Origin: a bacterium
GTDB lineage: Bacteria > Sumerlaeota > Sumerlaeia > MVZB01
Reading direction: 5' to 3'
Length of the DNA stretch: 46,052 nt
Assembly: GCA_021372575.1 (NCBI GenBank)
Contig: JAJFUE010000147.1
Coordinates: 1-46,052, forward strand
Within the stretch, counting starts at the first letter, position 1. Every line of letters starts with the position of its first letter. Below are positions 14,971 to 39,900 of the stretch, one piece after another. Below the pieces are notes generated by a model. It searched no databases and was not told the DNA's origin. It worked only from the letters and a program-made list of their open reading frames with translations. The translations under genes and the position numbers were made by a program.

Positions 14971-15062
14971 GAAATGAGAGATGAAAGATGAAAGATGAAA
15001 GATGAAAACGTAATTGGGAGATTCGATTACGATTACGATTACGAGCACGAGCACGAGCACGA
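14971..15062. repeat. GATGAAA array followed by GATTAC/GAGCAC array (copy b)
   Basis: After the aminotransferase stop comes an array of GATGAAA units (14977-15007). Then GATTAC x3 and GAGCAC x3 (15022-15062) end 13 bases before the flippase start. Read as protein this gives a run of Asp-Tyr and Glu-His, which is not part of the flippase. Confidence 0.9.
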
Positions 15063-18690: not shown

Positions 18691-18976
18691 CGTTCGTGCT
18701 CGTGCTCGTAATCCTAAGCTGGCGTAGCCAGAACCAAGCTATTGCATACCGTCCGGCTGTTTCTTGCCCGGCGAATTCAGCCGAGACCCGGCAGGGGTGA
18801 CACGGATTTGTATCGCTCCGTTGTGCCGCCCCTTGCCGGGGCTGGGCGTTCAACCGGGGACTCGCTACTGTACCGCTCCCCCGGAGCTGGCTGGCTTGCC
18901 TGAATCGAACGAGGGACTGACTGAGGCGGGCGATTCGATTACGATTACGATTACGATTACGAGCACGAGCACGACG
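18691..18976. repeat. Paired inverted GATTAC/GAGCAC arrays (copies c and d) with REP-like core
   Basis: This fills the 310-base gap between the GT2 stop and the GT4 start. The left array (18691-18713) is GTGCTC x2 then GTAATC; the right array (18934-18974) is GATTAC x4 then GAGCAC x2. They are inverted copies of one another for about 19 bases. Between them are GAGGGACTGACTG (core remnant, 18911-18923) and a GCTCC/GGAGC palindromic segment (about 18800-18895). No gene is seen. Confidence 0.85.
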
Positions 18977-25070: not shown

Positions 25071-25110
25071 CGATTACGATTACGATTACGATTACGAGCA
25101 CGAGCACGAG
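25071..25110. repeat. GATTAC/GAGCAC array (copy f)
   Basis: GATTAC x4 then GAGCAC x2 end 28 bases before the NusG-like start. A degenerate GAGATGAAAT unit lies 20 bases after the wzc stop. The 133-base gap holds no gene. Confidence 0.88.
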
Positions 25111-34140: not shown

Positions 34141-34298
34141 TCGTGCTCGTGCTCGTAATCGTAATCGTAATCGAAACCATCCCAAACACAGAAACCCATT
34201 CGATTACGTTTTCTGGATCGAGCATCCATGCAGTAGCCCGAGCGTGAGCGTATCGATTACGATTACGATTACGATTACGAGCACGAGCACGAGCACGA
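34141..34298. repeat. Paired inverted GATTAC/GAGCAC arrays (copies h and i)
   Basis: The left array, starting one base after the stop, is GTGCTC x2 then GTAATC x3 (34141-34173). The right array is GATTAC x4 then GAGCAC x3 (34252-34298), ending 8 bases before the next start. The arms are perfectly complementary over at least 33 bases, with an intervening loop of about 78 bases holding the core ATGCAGTAGCCCGAGCGTGA. Confidence 0.92.
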
Positions 34299-35595: not shown

Positions 35596-37632
35596 TTAGA
35601 ACTCGCCCATTTCCGAGTCGTTCAGCGGAATGACATGCTCGGCCTTCGCCGTATGCCCGGCGTGGACGAGGACCTTTTCGCTCTTGGCGGGCCTCGCCGC
35701 GTGAGCCGGGGCCGGGGCATGTCTTTGCGGCGCGGCCTGAGGGGTCGCGACCGTTCTCGCCAGGTTTTTCCTGTTCTCGCTGCCGCTGGAGCCGCGCACG
35801 ATGGCCACGAGCGTCCGGACCGTTTCGTTCAGTTCGTTGGCCTGGGCCGACAGCTCCTCGGCGGCCGACGCGGACTCCTCGGCGTTGGCGGCGTTGGACT
35901 GGGTGACCTTGTCCATCTGCGCGACGGCCGTGTTGATCTGGTCGATCCCCTGGGCCTGCTCGTTGCTGGCGGCCGAGACCTCGGCGTTGAGGTGCGTGAC
36001 CTTCTGGACGCCGCCGACGATCTGCTTCAGGATCTCGGCGACCTTGGCCGACACGGCGACGCCTTCCTCGGCGTTCTTCTGCGAATCCTCGATGAGCGTC
36101 GATGTGTTCTTCGCGGCCTCGGCGCTGCGCATCGCCAGGTTGCGGACCTCTTCGGCAACCACCGCGAAGCCCTTGCCGGCATCGCCGGCGCGTGCCGCCT
36201 CGACCGCGGCGTTCAGGGCCAGCAGGTTCGTCTGGAATGCGATCTCGTCGATGGTCTTGAGGATCTTGGCCGTCTGGTCGGAACTGGCCTTGATCTTGTC
36301 GATGGCCATCGACATCTGCTCCATGACCTCGCTGCCGCGTTCGGCGCCGACCTTGGCGTCGTTGGCCTGGGTGTTGGCTTCCTTGGCGTTGTCGGCGTTC
36401 TGCTTGGTCATCGAGGCCATTTCCTCAAGCGATGAGGAGACTTCCTCGAGGCTCGAGGCCTGTTCGCTGGCGCCCTCGGCCATCTGCTGGCTTGACGATG
36501 CGATTTGCGTGGAGGCCGACGTGATCTGCTCGGACGCCTGCGTCATGTTGTCGATCATCCCGTTGAACTGCTCGCCCAACTGGGTGATCTCACAGGTGCT
36601 GAACGTCTTCAGGCCCTTGAAGATGTTCTGGAACGGGCGGGTGATGTTGCGGGTGATGAAGATCGCCAGCACCACGCCGATCGCGGCGCAGCACAACATG
36701 AATGCGACGATCATCGACACGGTCCGCTTGCTGAGCGCCTGGGTGTCGGTGGAGATGGTCTGGTCGATTTTGGCGATGTTATCGACAATCGCCTTGGCCT
36801 GGGTAGCCATTTCGACGTTCACATTGCGGCCCGCAACGATCTGGTCGCGGTATTTCTGGCCGACCGCCTCGTAGTCCTTGCAATTGGTTTGGAACTTCTG
36901 AACGACCGCATCCATGTCGGGGACGCCCTTGACCATCTCGGCCCACTTGTCGATCCCTTCCTTAAACGCCTTCACGTTCGTCAAATACGTTTCGTAATCG
37001 GCGTCCGATTCGGATTTCATCAGATAGACCGCCTGCACGCGCACGAGCAGGAACGGCTGCATGATGTTATCGTTCGCGCCCTGACCGATTGCGGCCCATT
37101 TGTTGTAGGCCTGGAAGTCGCGCTTGGCGGCAGCGTCGGCGAGCGCCGGCTCGACTTTGTCCTTCTTGACTTCCGCGAGGCTCTTGGTGACGGCGGCGCC
37201 TACGCCTCTCCATTCGACAAGGATTGCATCCTTGTTCTTCTGCGCCTCGACGACGCGATCGAACGAGGTCTTGTAATCGGGCAGGATCTTCACGCCGGCG
37301 GCGGCAATATCCTGGTAAGATTTATCGACGTTCGCATCGGTCGCCAGCGCCTGCATTCCCTTGTTCAGGTCATTGTAGATGTCGTACCACTTGTCGGCTG
37401 CGTTCTTGGTCTCGCCCTGCGCGACCGCGAACTTGGTGATCGCGAAATCCCGCCGGTACTGCGCGCACTTGCTGATCTGGTCCTGGCAGGTTGACGCCTG
37501 ATCGGATATGTTAATCATGTTGCCGACATTCTTCATCCCGATCCACCCCGCCGTGCCCATGGCGATCGTGATGATGATGAGTGCGCTGAATCCCGCGAAA
37601 ATCTTCGTTCCCAACCTCATGTTGCCCAGCAT
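35596..37632 (-). CDS. Methyl-accepting chemotaxis protein
   Basis: A 678-aa transmembrane receptor. TM1 is at about 10-32, a periplasmic all-helical sensor of about 270 residues (HBM/four-helix-bundle type) follows, and TM2 is at about 306-326. A short HAMP-like region leads to the cytoplasmic signalling domain with the conserved hairpin tip [20 protein letters not shown] and [12 protein letters not shown]. Gln/Glu/Ser-rich methylation helices flank it. The C-terminus is Ala/Pro/His-rich and ends EMGEF. No cheA, cheW or other che gene is in the window. GGAGGAAGG precedes the ATG. A structured RNA with terminator lies about 290 bases upstream. Confidence 0.96.
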
Positions 37633-37923: not shown

Positions 37924-37982
37924 AAAAATAAAAAAGGCACGACCCGTTGGATCGCGCCTGCGAATCCTTCGGGTCGTGCCTT
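37924..37982 (-). terminator. Intrinsic terminator of RNA element 1
   Basis: On the minus strand AAGGCACGACCCG pairs perfectly with CGGGTCGTGCCTT (13 base pairs), extended by a GGAT/ATCC inner helix, and is followed by TTTTTTATTTTT. It is one of the strongest terminators in the window. Confidence 0.92.
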
Positions 37983-38085
37983 ACGATGCGTCGAACCTGC
38001 CGTTCGGCCCATCAAGGCGGCCTGCCCTATTTGAGCGGCCCCGTTGTTGACTACTCACCATTTCGTCAGCCGGGGCCGCGCCCTT
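37983..38085 (-). ncRNA. Structured RNA element 1 (unrecognised class), upstream of MCP
   Basis: Read on the minus strand it contains the block TGACGAAATGG (38058-38068), hairpin 1 (38019-38040; GGCCGCTC, loop AAATA, GGGC-A-GGCC), the linker GCCTTGATGGG, hairpin 2 (37992-38006; CGAAC, loop GGCAG, GTTCG) and then the terminator stem. The same order recurs in element 2 with paired substitutions in both stems. It begins just after the receiver-protein stop and precedes the MCP. No match to c-di-GMP, TPP, glycine, SAM or cobalamin riboswitch cores was found. Function unknown; a terminator-controlled switch is inferred. Confidence 0.75.
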
Positions 38086-38096
38086 GAATATTTTTG

Positions 38097-38840
38097 TTAA
38101 TTTTTATGGTCTTTCAAGAATTGCTCGAGCCTGACGCGCAGCTCGTGGAGGTCGCGCGACTTGAAATAATTCTTGGTTTTTTCGATCGTCGCGATCGTTT
38201 CGCGCAGCATCCCTTCGCACGCATTCAGCCTCGGGCAGGCGAGAAGATGGCAGGTGTGATATTCGGTTTCTTTCTCGGCGACGGCGTCGAGCAGGGTCTT
38301 GAGGTCCAGCACCGAGCCGAGGATGCGCCCGATCGTAAGCGGGACGAATTTCTGAAGCTCGAGCCGGTCCGGCTCGCCATGGTCCTGGTTCAGGTATTTC
38401 TCGAGCGTTGAGACTTCCTTCGTCCACCCTTCCATTCGTTCCAGCACACTCGAACACGCGCGGCGTTCCTGGCAGACGGACACGTTTTGCTCTACCAACT
38501 CAAGCACTTCGTCCAGGTCGAAGGGTTCGATCAGGTATGCCTTGACTCCCAGCCTCACCGCCCTGGCTGCGGATTCGACGGACGGGTTTCGCGTCACGAT
38601 CAGGACCGGTATTCCCTGATTGACCGAGTTGATCCGGCCGACGAGGTCCATGTCCGGTTCGTCGTGATGCTCGAGGCCGCAAATAAACAGGTCGAAGGCG
38701 GCACTTTTCAGCAGTGACGCGGCCGATTCGCGCGCATCGACCCATGAGCAGCGGTGGCCCCGTTCCTGCAGGGGGCAAAGAAGATTCTTAAGGCCTGACT
38801 CGATGTCGCCCGCCAGAAGGATTTTCCCCCGAATCTTCAT
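38097..38840 (-). CDS. Receiver-like (pseudo-response-regulator) protein with helical Cys-containing C-terminus
   Basis: A 247-aa protein. Residues 1 to about 120 align with CheY-type receivers (KILLAGDIESG, then IPVLIVTRNP, GVKAYLIEPFDLDEVLEL). The phospho-acceptor Asp of DLVLLD is Gly55 (DLFICG) and the conserved Lys of KPF is Glu105, so phosphotransfer is unlikely; Thr83 is kept. The C-terminal 120 residues are helical with a CHLLACPRLNAC cluster that could bind metal or form disulphides. It lies on the same strand as the MCP, with RNA element 2 upstream and RNA element 1 downstream. It may work as a phosphorylation-independent partner of the MCP (inferred). Confidence 0.82.
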   Translation of the reverse strand: MKIRGKILLAGDIESGLKNLLCPLQERGHRCSWVDARESAASLLKSAAFDLFICGLEHHDEPDMDLVGRINSVNQGIPVLIVTRNPSVESAARAVRLGVKAYLIEPFDLDEVLELVEQNVSVCQERRACSSVLERMEGWTKEVSTLEKYLNQDHGEPDRLELQKFVPLTIGRILGSVLDLKTLLDAVAEKETEYHTCHLLACPRLNACEGMLRETIATIEKTKNYFKSRDLHELRVRLEQFLKDHKN

Positions 38841-38974
38841 GCTCAGCCTCGTCTGCGTTAAACCCCAACTTCAGCCGCTCGCCACGATCAAGCACGCGTC
38901 GCTATGAATACGTTTAAACTGCGCTCAACGCTCCTTTATGCGAGGTTCGGTCGGATGCTTTTCCCGCCGGGGGC

Positions 38975-39032
38975 AAAATAAAAAGGCACAATCCAATCCG
39001 CGCGCGGTCGCGACGGATTCGAATTGTGCCTT
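38975..39032 (-). terminator. Intrinsic terminator of RNA element 2
   Basis: On the minus strand AAGGCACAAT pairs with ATTGTGCCTT (10 base pairs), extended by AATCCG/CGGATT, and is followed by TTTTTATTTT. It sits 135 bases before the receiver-protein start. Confidence 0.9.
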
Positions 39033-39125
39033 CGACAGGTTGGACCGGCCGTCCAACTCACCAAGGCGGCCGGGCTCTATTCGAGCGGCCCACCGATCCT
39101 CAATTCCCATTTCGTCAACTCGCAA
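39033..39125 (-). ncRNA. Structured RNA element 2 (same class as element 1), upstream of the receiver-like gene
   Basis: On the minus strand: TGACGAAATGG (39107-39117), hairpin 1 (39068-39090; GGCCGCTC, loop GAATA, GAGC-CC-GGCC), linker GCCTTGGTGAG, hairpin 2 (39040-39056; TTGGAC, loop GGCCG, GTCCAA), then TCGAAGGCAC entering the terminator. Relative to element 1, hairpin 2 has every stem pair but the closing ones changed in a compensated way, and hairpin 1 keeps pairing through a G-U to A-U change. A 121-codon frame across the region (39290-38925) is broken in the other copy and spans the terminator, so RNA is the better reading. Confidence 0.75.
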
Positions 39126-39502
39126 GTCTTTCATGAACGCATAATCCTTATGCTGAACCTCTTCCTGAGTGGCGCCCCGCTCGATGCCCCCTCCCAGGGT
39201 GGCACTTAGGCGATTTTGATAGACCAACTGTGGACGGATGAGATCCTTTCGGATCGCTTGTGGTTTTCTGTTACGGTCACCTCGGCGCAAGCATGGCTTC
39301 GAATTTTGTGCCGCGTCCGGCGCGGCAAAACCCCGTAACGCGCGTCGCGGCGCGTTAGCGGAAGATATTATTTGCCGTCGATCTGAATTGAATTTGCTGG
39401 TTGATTCGACAACGTCTCAAGCCGGTACGTATCGGTATTGCCACCTGAAGGCTGACATACGGGTCAAGAAACATCGCTCACCTAGAACCTAATGCTTTTA
39501 AT

Positions 39503-39682: not shown

Positions 39683-39758
39683 TGGTGGACCAGAGGAGGC
39701 TCGAACTCCTGACCTCGGCGTTGCGAACGCCGCGCTCTCCCAACTGAGCTACTGGCCC
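39683..39758 (-). tRNA. tRNA-Ala (anticodon CGC)
   Basis: A full 76-base cloverleaf including encoded CCA. The acceptor stem GGGCCAG pairs with CTGGTCC and shows the G3-U70 wobble that marks alanine tRNAs. The D arm is GCTC-AGTTGGGA-GAGC, the anticodon stem CGGCG/CGCCG with loop TTCGCAA (anticodon CGC, codon GCG) and the T arm AGGAG-TTCGAGC-CTCCT. Confidence 0.97.
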
Positions 39759-39814: not shown

Positions 39815-39900
39815 GAATTGACGATTTACGAATGACGATTTGCACTTAAGCCTGTGGGGAAATTTCATTTCAAATCGTCAATCTGCAATCGTCAATTCAT
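39815..39900. repeat. TTGACGA boundary repeats, inverted pair between tRNA and holA
   Basis: AATTGACGATTTACGAATGA (39816-39835) and its inverted partner ending CAATCGTCAATTCAT (39886-39900) frame the gap. The right arm directly abuts the holA stop codon. Confidence 0.75.

Follow-up and report, generated by a model that had tools for sequence, protein, structure and literature searches.

A family of attenuator RNAs ahead of chemotaxis genes in several bacterial phyla and its possible reading by a receiver protein

Two similar RNA elements lie on the minus strand of the window (the whole stretch of DNA that was analysed, 46,052 nucleotides), at 39117..38974 (copy 2) and 38068..37924 (copy 1). 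They very probably represent a real attenuator RNA family for chemotaxis genes that is uncatalogued in Rfam 15. In the reading preferred here, which is given somewhat more than an even chance, the new family is probably read by a receiver protein in a way similar to the ANTAR regulators; the attenuator part of this reading is well supported, and the protein partner is what we infer. The computations gave a conserved RNA, mutually exclusive folds, promoters in many members, a characteristic gene context and co-occurrence with the receiver family.

Results and discussion

The two RNA elements of the window

A preliminary description of this region, made from the sequence alone, had reported two minus-strand copies with a common order of parts and paired changes in their stems, and both features were recovered at those positions. 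The order common to both copies is TGACGAAATGG, hairpin 1, GCCTTGRTGRG, hairpin 2, TCG(T)AAGGCAC and a terminator with its T tract. The consensus of hairpin 1 is GGCC-GCTC-RAATA-GRGC-GGCC, and hairpin 2 differs between the copies (CGAAC-GGCAG-GTTCG and TTGGAC-GGCCG-GTCCAA). In the hand-checked alignment of one copy against the other, hairpin 2 and the terminator each show two double compensatory changes, along with several one-sided G-U changes and no broken pairs. The folding energies of the copies correspond to z = -6.1 and -3.9 with respect to shuffles, none of the 200 shuffles folding as well.

One feature was overlooked in the preliminary description. GCCUU, located just past hairpin 1, is complementary to AAGGC. 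The latter closes the hairpin-2 element on its 3' side and at the same time begins the 5' arm of the terminator. This arrangement is the layout of an antiterminator/terminator pair. The coordinates of all these parts and of the downstream genes are collected in Table 1. Between the T tract and the start codon there are approximately 300 nt for the MCP gene and 140 nt for the receiver gene, so there is room for another promoter.

Table 1. Features of the two RNA elements and their downstream genes (positions in the window)
Feature	Coordinates	Strand	Basis
Copy 2, probable promoter: TTCATGAA (39137..39130) and GACGAAAT (39116..39109)	39109..39137	-	Geometry as in copy 1; family promoters
Copy 2, hairpin 1 (GGCCGCTC..GAGCCCGGCC), abutting the core	39068..39090	-	Hand alignment; such a hairpin in most family members
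Copy 2, core/antiterminator: GCCUU (39067..39063) with AAGGC (39032..39028), enclosing hairpin 2 (39056..39040)	39028..39067	-	RNAalifold, pair counts, truncated-transcript fold
Copy 2, intrinsic terminator AAGGCACAATTC..GGATTGTGCCTT and T tract, 5' arm overlapping the antiterminator	38974..39032	-	Folds
Copy 2, R3 model match	39067..38978	-	59.4 bits
Receiver-like protein, 247 aa, downstream of copy 2	38097..38840	-	Pfam Response_reg, E 6e-8
Copy 1, probable promoter: TTCAAGGG (38088..38081) and GACGAAAT (38067..38060)	38060..38088	-	As for copy 2
Copy 1, hairpin 1 (GGCCGCTC..GGGCAGGCC)	38019..38040	-	Hand alignment; family members
Copy 1, core/antiterminator: GCCUU (38018..38014) with AAGGC (37982..37978), enclosing hairpin 2 (38007..37992)	37978..38018	-	RNAalifold, pair counts, truncated-transcript fold
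Copy 1, intrinsic terminator AAGGCACGACCC..GGGTCGTGCCTT and T tract	37924..37982	-	Terminator scan, folds
Copy 1, R3 model match	38018..37929	-	55.3 bits
Methyl-accepting chemotaxis protein (MCP), 678 aa, downstream of copy 1	35596..37632	-	Pfam MCPsignal, E 1.5e-45

Two other kinds of repeat were observed in the window. A 35-nt imperfect inverted repeat (80%, 14-nt loop) occupies 39815-39898, just upstream of a tRNA-Ala gene (39683-39758, minus strand), and arrays of the hexamers CGATTA and CGAGCA form a dispersed simple repeat at 15024-15062, 18931-18974, 25071-25109 and 34254-34298.

Members and distribution of the RNA family

When the window was compared with 4227 Rfam families by cmscan, a single tRNA reached the gathering level and nothing credible appeared over the RNA element at E values up to 10. 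No riboswitch family, GEMM included, was among the Rfam matches listed, all of which, tRNAs apart, were below their gathering scores; this agrees with the earlier remark that the GEMM core is absent. A literature search, with most subscription papers outside its reach, retrieved neither a described motif of this kind nor a family of RNA attenuators devoted to chemotaxis genes; to our knowledge, no such family is known.

The preliminary description had proposed a covariance model built from both copies. Such a model (R2) matched only the two window copies, in their own genome, among the 61 genomes searched, a result that alone would have suggested a private duplication. The same genome contains a relative of the window receiver (34% identity) whose gene lies next to cheA and cheW, with an MCP gene at the contig end, and a third, diverged copy of the RNA is located between this relative and cheA (L046 5452-5539). 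Both receivers of this genome were used as queries in the genome collection and gave 30 loci, several of them with the same RNA near the receiver gene. From nine seed sequences, with the terminator loops trimmed for building only, a second model (R3) was built; 30 copies in total were used, and 21 of them are outside the seed.

Among the R3 matches outside the seed are one in Latescibacterota (L056, 61.3 bits, E 1e-13) and one in Verrucomicrobia (L069, 42.4 bits), and further copies came from other genomes with receiver loci, from a sample of 384 Verrucomicrobia genomes and from 150 genomes of the class of one Planctomycete. R3 found exactly three copies in the window's own genome, no convincing copy in the 40 genomes of the collection nearest to it, and nothing in Latescibacterota beyond the genome already known. 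The carriers belong to Planctomycetota, Verrucomicrobiota, Latescibacterota, KSB1 and, tentatively, Gemmatimonadota, in addition to the window's own genome, and the family is present in at least four phyla. The weakest copies, G063 and G069 (about 29 bits), are less certain, and G069 is the sole copy from Gemmatimonadota.

Some matches were left uncounted as bare terminators: G147, G230 and G239 from Verrucomicrobia (39-50 nt) and G020 (36 nt). BLAST matches of the window copies elsewhere in their own genome were also set aside, and these resemble coding sequence or bare terminators.

Covariation and alternative folds

RNAalifold, without a supplied structure, predicted the GCYUU/AAGGC helix and hairpin 2 from a MAFFT alignment of 29 natural cores. 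In the full structure, 88% of the cells are paired, compared to 26-46% in slid versions, and 29 cells are changed on both sides (8.8 +/- 2.4 in shuffles, 5-11 in slid structures). The covariation score was 0.316 versus 0.198 +/- 0.013 in the shuffles, hairpin 2 being the main site of covariation. Concerning P1a, the GCYUU/AAGGC helix, its changes are one-sided only (C-G to U-G and a few U-A to U-G), which is expected if its 3' side must serve the terminator too. Mismatches in the middle of the helix are frequent in P1b, the inner three pairs, and its support is partial. Hairpin 1 is variable in sequence, and a hairpin that abuts the core is better than in shuffles (P < 0.05) in 15 of the 30 copies. 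The loops of both hairpins vary in length and sequence, and the linkers show conservation of both sequence and structure.

In 24 of the 30 copies P1a could form with all five of its pairs, and shuffling would predict this for 0.13 copies. This helix is part of the minimum-energy fold in 22 of 30 leaders truncated just after AAGGC and in none of the 30 complete leaders, all of which contain the terminator in their fold. Two features of an attenuator are thereby present: a leader terminator upstream of a co-directional gene, and a conserved alternative helix that excludes this terminator. Moreover, the core lengths vary regardless of frame (12, 7 and 11 copies per residue class), which rules out protein-coding conservation.

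The preliminary description had proposed a new class of structured leader or attenuator ahead of signalling genes, and had named a lack of covarying homologues, a match to an Rfam family or coding conservation as grounds against it. The proposal is supported: covarying copies exist in several phyla and precede MCP, cheA, cheW or receiver genes, Rfam gave no match, and the frame-free core lengths exclude coding conservation.

Promoters upstream of the RNA

Roughly half of the copies have, 28-40 nt before the core, a site similar to those recognised by sigma-28, resembling TAAAGTTT-N11-GCCGATAA. Examples are G064 (16 of 16 matches), G062 (15) and the cheA copy of the window's own genome (13), and the summed score is 314 versus 257 +/- 5.3 in shuffles. 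The window copies have no good sigma-28 match. Instead, both of them carry TTCAWG followed by GACGAAAT, 21 nt from start to start, with GACGAAAT placed 41 nt before the core, and in other family members the sigma-28-like TAAA(G)..N11..GCCGATAA is almost equally far from the core. Hence, the TTCAWG/GACGAAAT element of the window could be a promoter variant.

Regarding TGACGAAATGG, the preliminary description had included it among the parts shared by both RNAs. The element is indeed present in both, and it is probably promoter DNA rather than a part of the RNA, since it sits where other members carry the -10 element of their promoter. The same description had suggested that the leaders meter each cistron of a two-gene operon. 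Each gene does have its own leader, and the idea of a single operon has to be revised, since a separate promoter is probable for each copy.

Genes downstream of the RNA

The majority of the copies precede MCP, cheA, cheW or receiver genes, and a chemotaxis or receiver gene is found downstream in approximately 20 of 30, as judged from Pfam or from plain translation. An MCP follows window copy 1, G072a, G072b, G065c, G463a, G155, G379, G305 (by translation) and G065b (a shortened MCP); CheA follows the RNA in the window's own genome, in G504 and, after a TPR gene, in G074; CheW follows G065a and G418 (by translation); and receivers follow window copy 2, G463b, G061, G073a and G073b. Often no more than about 100 nt separate the start codon from the T tract. 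G463, from the search of the Planctomycete class, has exactly the order of the window, RNA-receiver-RNA-MCP. As exceptions, G071a and G473 have no co-directional chemotaxis gene, and G063, G069 and G071b precede other genes.

In three Phycisphaerae the RNA is followed by a small protein family of 113-142 aa with no Pfam match (L148 6137-6475, L149, and L153 6113-6517). The shortened MCP of G065b (L156 / L129) is a remnant of 95 aa in which the N-terminal and extreme C-terminal parts are joined and the middle is missing; it is either an assembly collapse or a real mini-protein. It should also be mentioned that only three matches to the MCP signalling domain were detected in the window's own genome (G000), two of them at contig ends (C108, C109). 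These two may be halves of one gene, and the window MCP would then be one of only two.

The receiver protein and its link to the RNA

The receiver protein of the window presents a degenerate receiver domain and an uncharacterised helical C-terminal domain that, as a profile of this domain showed, also accompanies the RNA elsewhere. AlphaFold2 modelled it as a receiver, a long helix and three more helices, and the model of the C-terminal domain alone is weak (pTM 0.38). This domain gave no Pfam match (17 domains scanned) and no significant sequence match in the PDB, and NCBIfam matches only the receiver part. In Foldseek searches against the PDB, the matches of the whole protein were all of receiver type, and those of the domain alone were not significant. 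An ANTAR domain was absent from the window protein and the 17 C-terminal domains in the Pfam scan, and no ANTAR structure was among the 50 best Foldseek matches. The end of the domain carries the conserved motif EKTK..FKS.EL..LR..LE.

The position of the phospho-acceptor Asp is occupied by Gly in the window protein and by Glu in the G463 protein, and by Asp in the other 18 aligned members; the cheA-linked receiver of the window's own genome keeps its phosphorylation site intact. The two receivers without Asp (window 38097-38840 (-); G463, L166 6499-7386 (-)) are those of both RNA-receiver-RNA-MCP loci, and they are possibly phosphorylation-independent readers or decoys.

The linkage at the seed loci is biased because these loci came from the receiver search. 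Among the 384 Verrucomicrobia, all five genomes with a full-length RNA are within the 15 that have the C-terminal domain (P about 4e-8), two of the five (G072 and G070) being known beforehand, and the three genomes with bare-terminator matches do not have the domain. Furthermore, all six inspected genomes that the RNA model had been the first to pick out, in unseeded samples (G155, G379, G305, G463, G504 and G473), have a domain gene adjacent. The search in the opposite direction, from the domain genes, located RNAs not listed before beside the G418 gene and beside both domain genes of G215. The receiver locus of G065 (L060) has no RNA, and three RNAs are found elsewhere in this genome. In both G065 and G070 the receiver gene is on another contig than the RNA, a separation that suggests a partner acting in trans. 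A domain gene or receiver relative without a detected RNA was seen in G067 and G068 (E 0.01) and in the Verrucomicrobia G089 and G280, with none near the domain gene in the latter two.

This linkage could reflect common membership of a chemotaxis gene cluster rather than binding. The co-occurrence with the RNA and the precedent of ANTAR are the reasons to propose that the C-terminal domain binds RNA, and the chance that the receiver protein is the reader of the leader could be put at even or slightly above.

Alternative explanations

The same attenuator could be a small-molecule riboswitch, with the core (GCYUU-nnC-GG, hairpin 2, AAGUCGAAGGC) as the aptamer of a metabolite or second messenger and the receiver family merely in the same regulon. 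The conservation of the linkers would agree with this, many riboswitches have the attenuator layout, and genes of this type are often under second-messenger control. Nevertheless, the core is small (about 45 nt) and its hairpin-2 loop is variable, it has no likeness to any of the Rfam families compared, and so close a tie to one protein family would be unusual; a riboswitch is considered rather unlikely. The preliminary description had allowed for a ligand-sensing or a protein-bound leader, and the tight tie to the receiver speaks for a protein reader no less than for a metabolite. The RNA might also be a stand-alone sigma-28-dependent sRNA with its own promoter and terminator that acts elsewhere, the chemotaxis genes being simply its neighbours in the flagellar regulon. 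Such sRNAs exist in E. coli (PMC10578931), promoter and terminator tightly flank the RNA here, and in G071a and G473 no chemotaxis gene follows in the same direction. In many genomes, however, the MCP, cheA, cheW or receiver gene starts less than about 100 nt from the T tract, with little room for a promoter, and a conserved GCYUU that competes with the terminator would have no evident purpose in a plain sRNA, so that this explanation seems quite improbable.

Two other explanations have very little in their favour. In ribosome-driven attenuation, the ATG within TGACGAAATGG would start a short peptide that controls the terminator; this ATG is present in both window copies and its frames are open through part of the core, but it falls within the probable promoter element and the core lengths of the family disregard frame, and leader-peptide attenuation is already largely refuted and highly unlikely to be correct. 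Least credible of all is that an ordinary terminator was duplicated locally and regulates nothing, as the two R2 matches in the genome might suggest; the held-out homologues in several phyla refute it, and the covariation and the conserved context also stand against it. CsrA-type binding to GGA was dropped because GGA is missing from hairpin 2 in several copies, and an integron attC site, prompted by the copy-gene-copy order, was rejected since the terminator, the core and the family context explain this order.

Comparison with known systems

The closest parallel in organisation is given by the ANTAR regulators (EutV, NasR, AmiR), in which a receiver-type regulator acts on a two-hairpin leader. 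EutV binds a pair of hairpins of which the second overlaps the terminator, and such terminators occur throughout the operon; the ANTAR target consists of two hairpins with hexanucleotide loops that have A at position 1 and G at position 4 (PMC3369931). In the family described here, AAGGC is common to hairpin-2 element and terminator, and the predicted model of the protein also contains a receiver, a long helix and a helical end. On the other hand, this family has no ANTAR domain or structure, its targets are chemotaxis genes and its hairpin loops are not hexanucleotides with A1/G4.

In BglG/SacY-RAT and TRAP the antiterminator and the terminator also share bases, and there a protein decides between them. 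PTS-regulated proteins read RAT, which is one element of about 30 nt, and TRAP reads triplet repeats (PMC3369931), but neither type of protein is linked to the RNA here. GEMM (c-di-GMP-I) is alike in its layout, an aptamer and a terminator ahead of motility or signalling genes, and differs in that the present RNA has no Rfam match. In the E. coli sRNAs UhpU, MotR, FliX and FlgO the flagellar sigma factor also drives a short structured RNA (PMC10578931); these are derived from UTRs and act by base pairing, whereas the RNA of this family is in most copies a leader directly upstream of chemotaxis genes.

Proposed mechanism and significance

In the preferred reading, each copy would be the 5' leader of its gene and would work as a transcription attenuator. 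RNA polymerase would start at a flagellar-type (sigma-28-like) promoter and produce hairpin 1 and then the GCYUU..AAGGC stem closed over hairpin 2, and this stem would tie up the bases with which the 5' arm of the terminator begins. If the leader were unbound, the longer terminator would win and transcription would stop ahead of the chemotaxis gene; if the element of hairpin 1 and hairpin 2 were held, the terminator would not form and the gene would be made. The likeliest holder could be the accompanying receiver protein family, through its helical C-terminal domain, much as a two-hairpin leader is held by response regulators of the ANTAR type. Each of the two window genes, for the receiver and for the MCP, would be served by its own RNA copy. 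In this scheme, regulated read-through, RNA binding by the receiver and the direction in which the switch works are inferred.

A broader and more tentative proposal, to which slightly less than an even chance is given, is that a response-regulator family with a new, non-ANTAR RNA-binding output domain acts in trans, in at least four phyla, on a dedicated family of sigma-28-driven leaders and decides whether the genes for chemotaxis receptors, kinases and coupling proteins are transcribed. If this is true, bacteria of several little-studied phyla would set the numbers of their receptors and kinases by an RNA decision taken after transcription start, under the control of a response regulator. 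ANTAR would also be joined by a second, independent kind of response-regulator output that binds RNA, for which a list of target leaders is already at hand.
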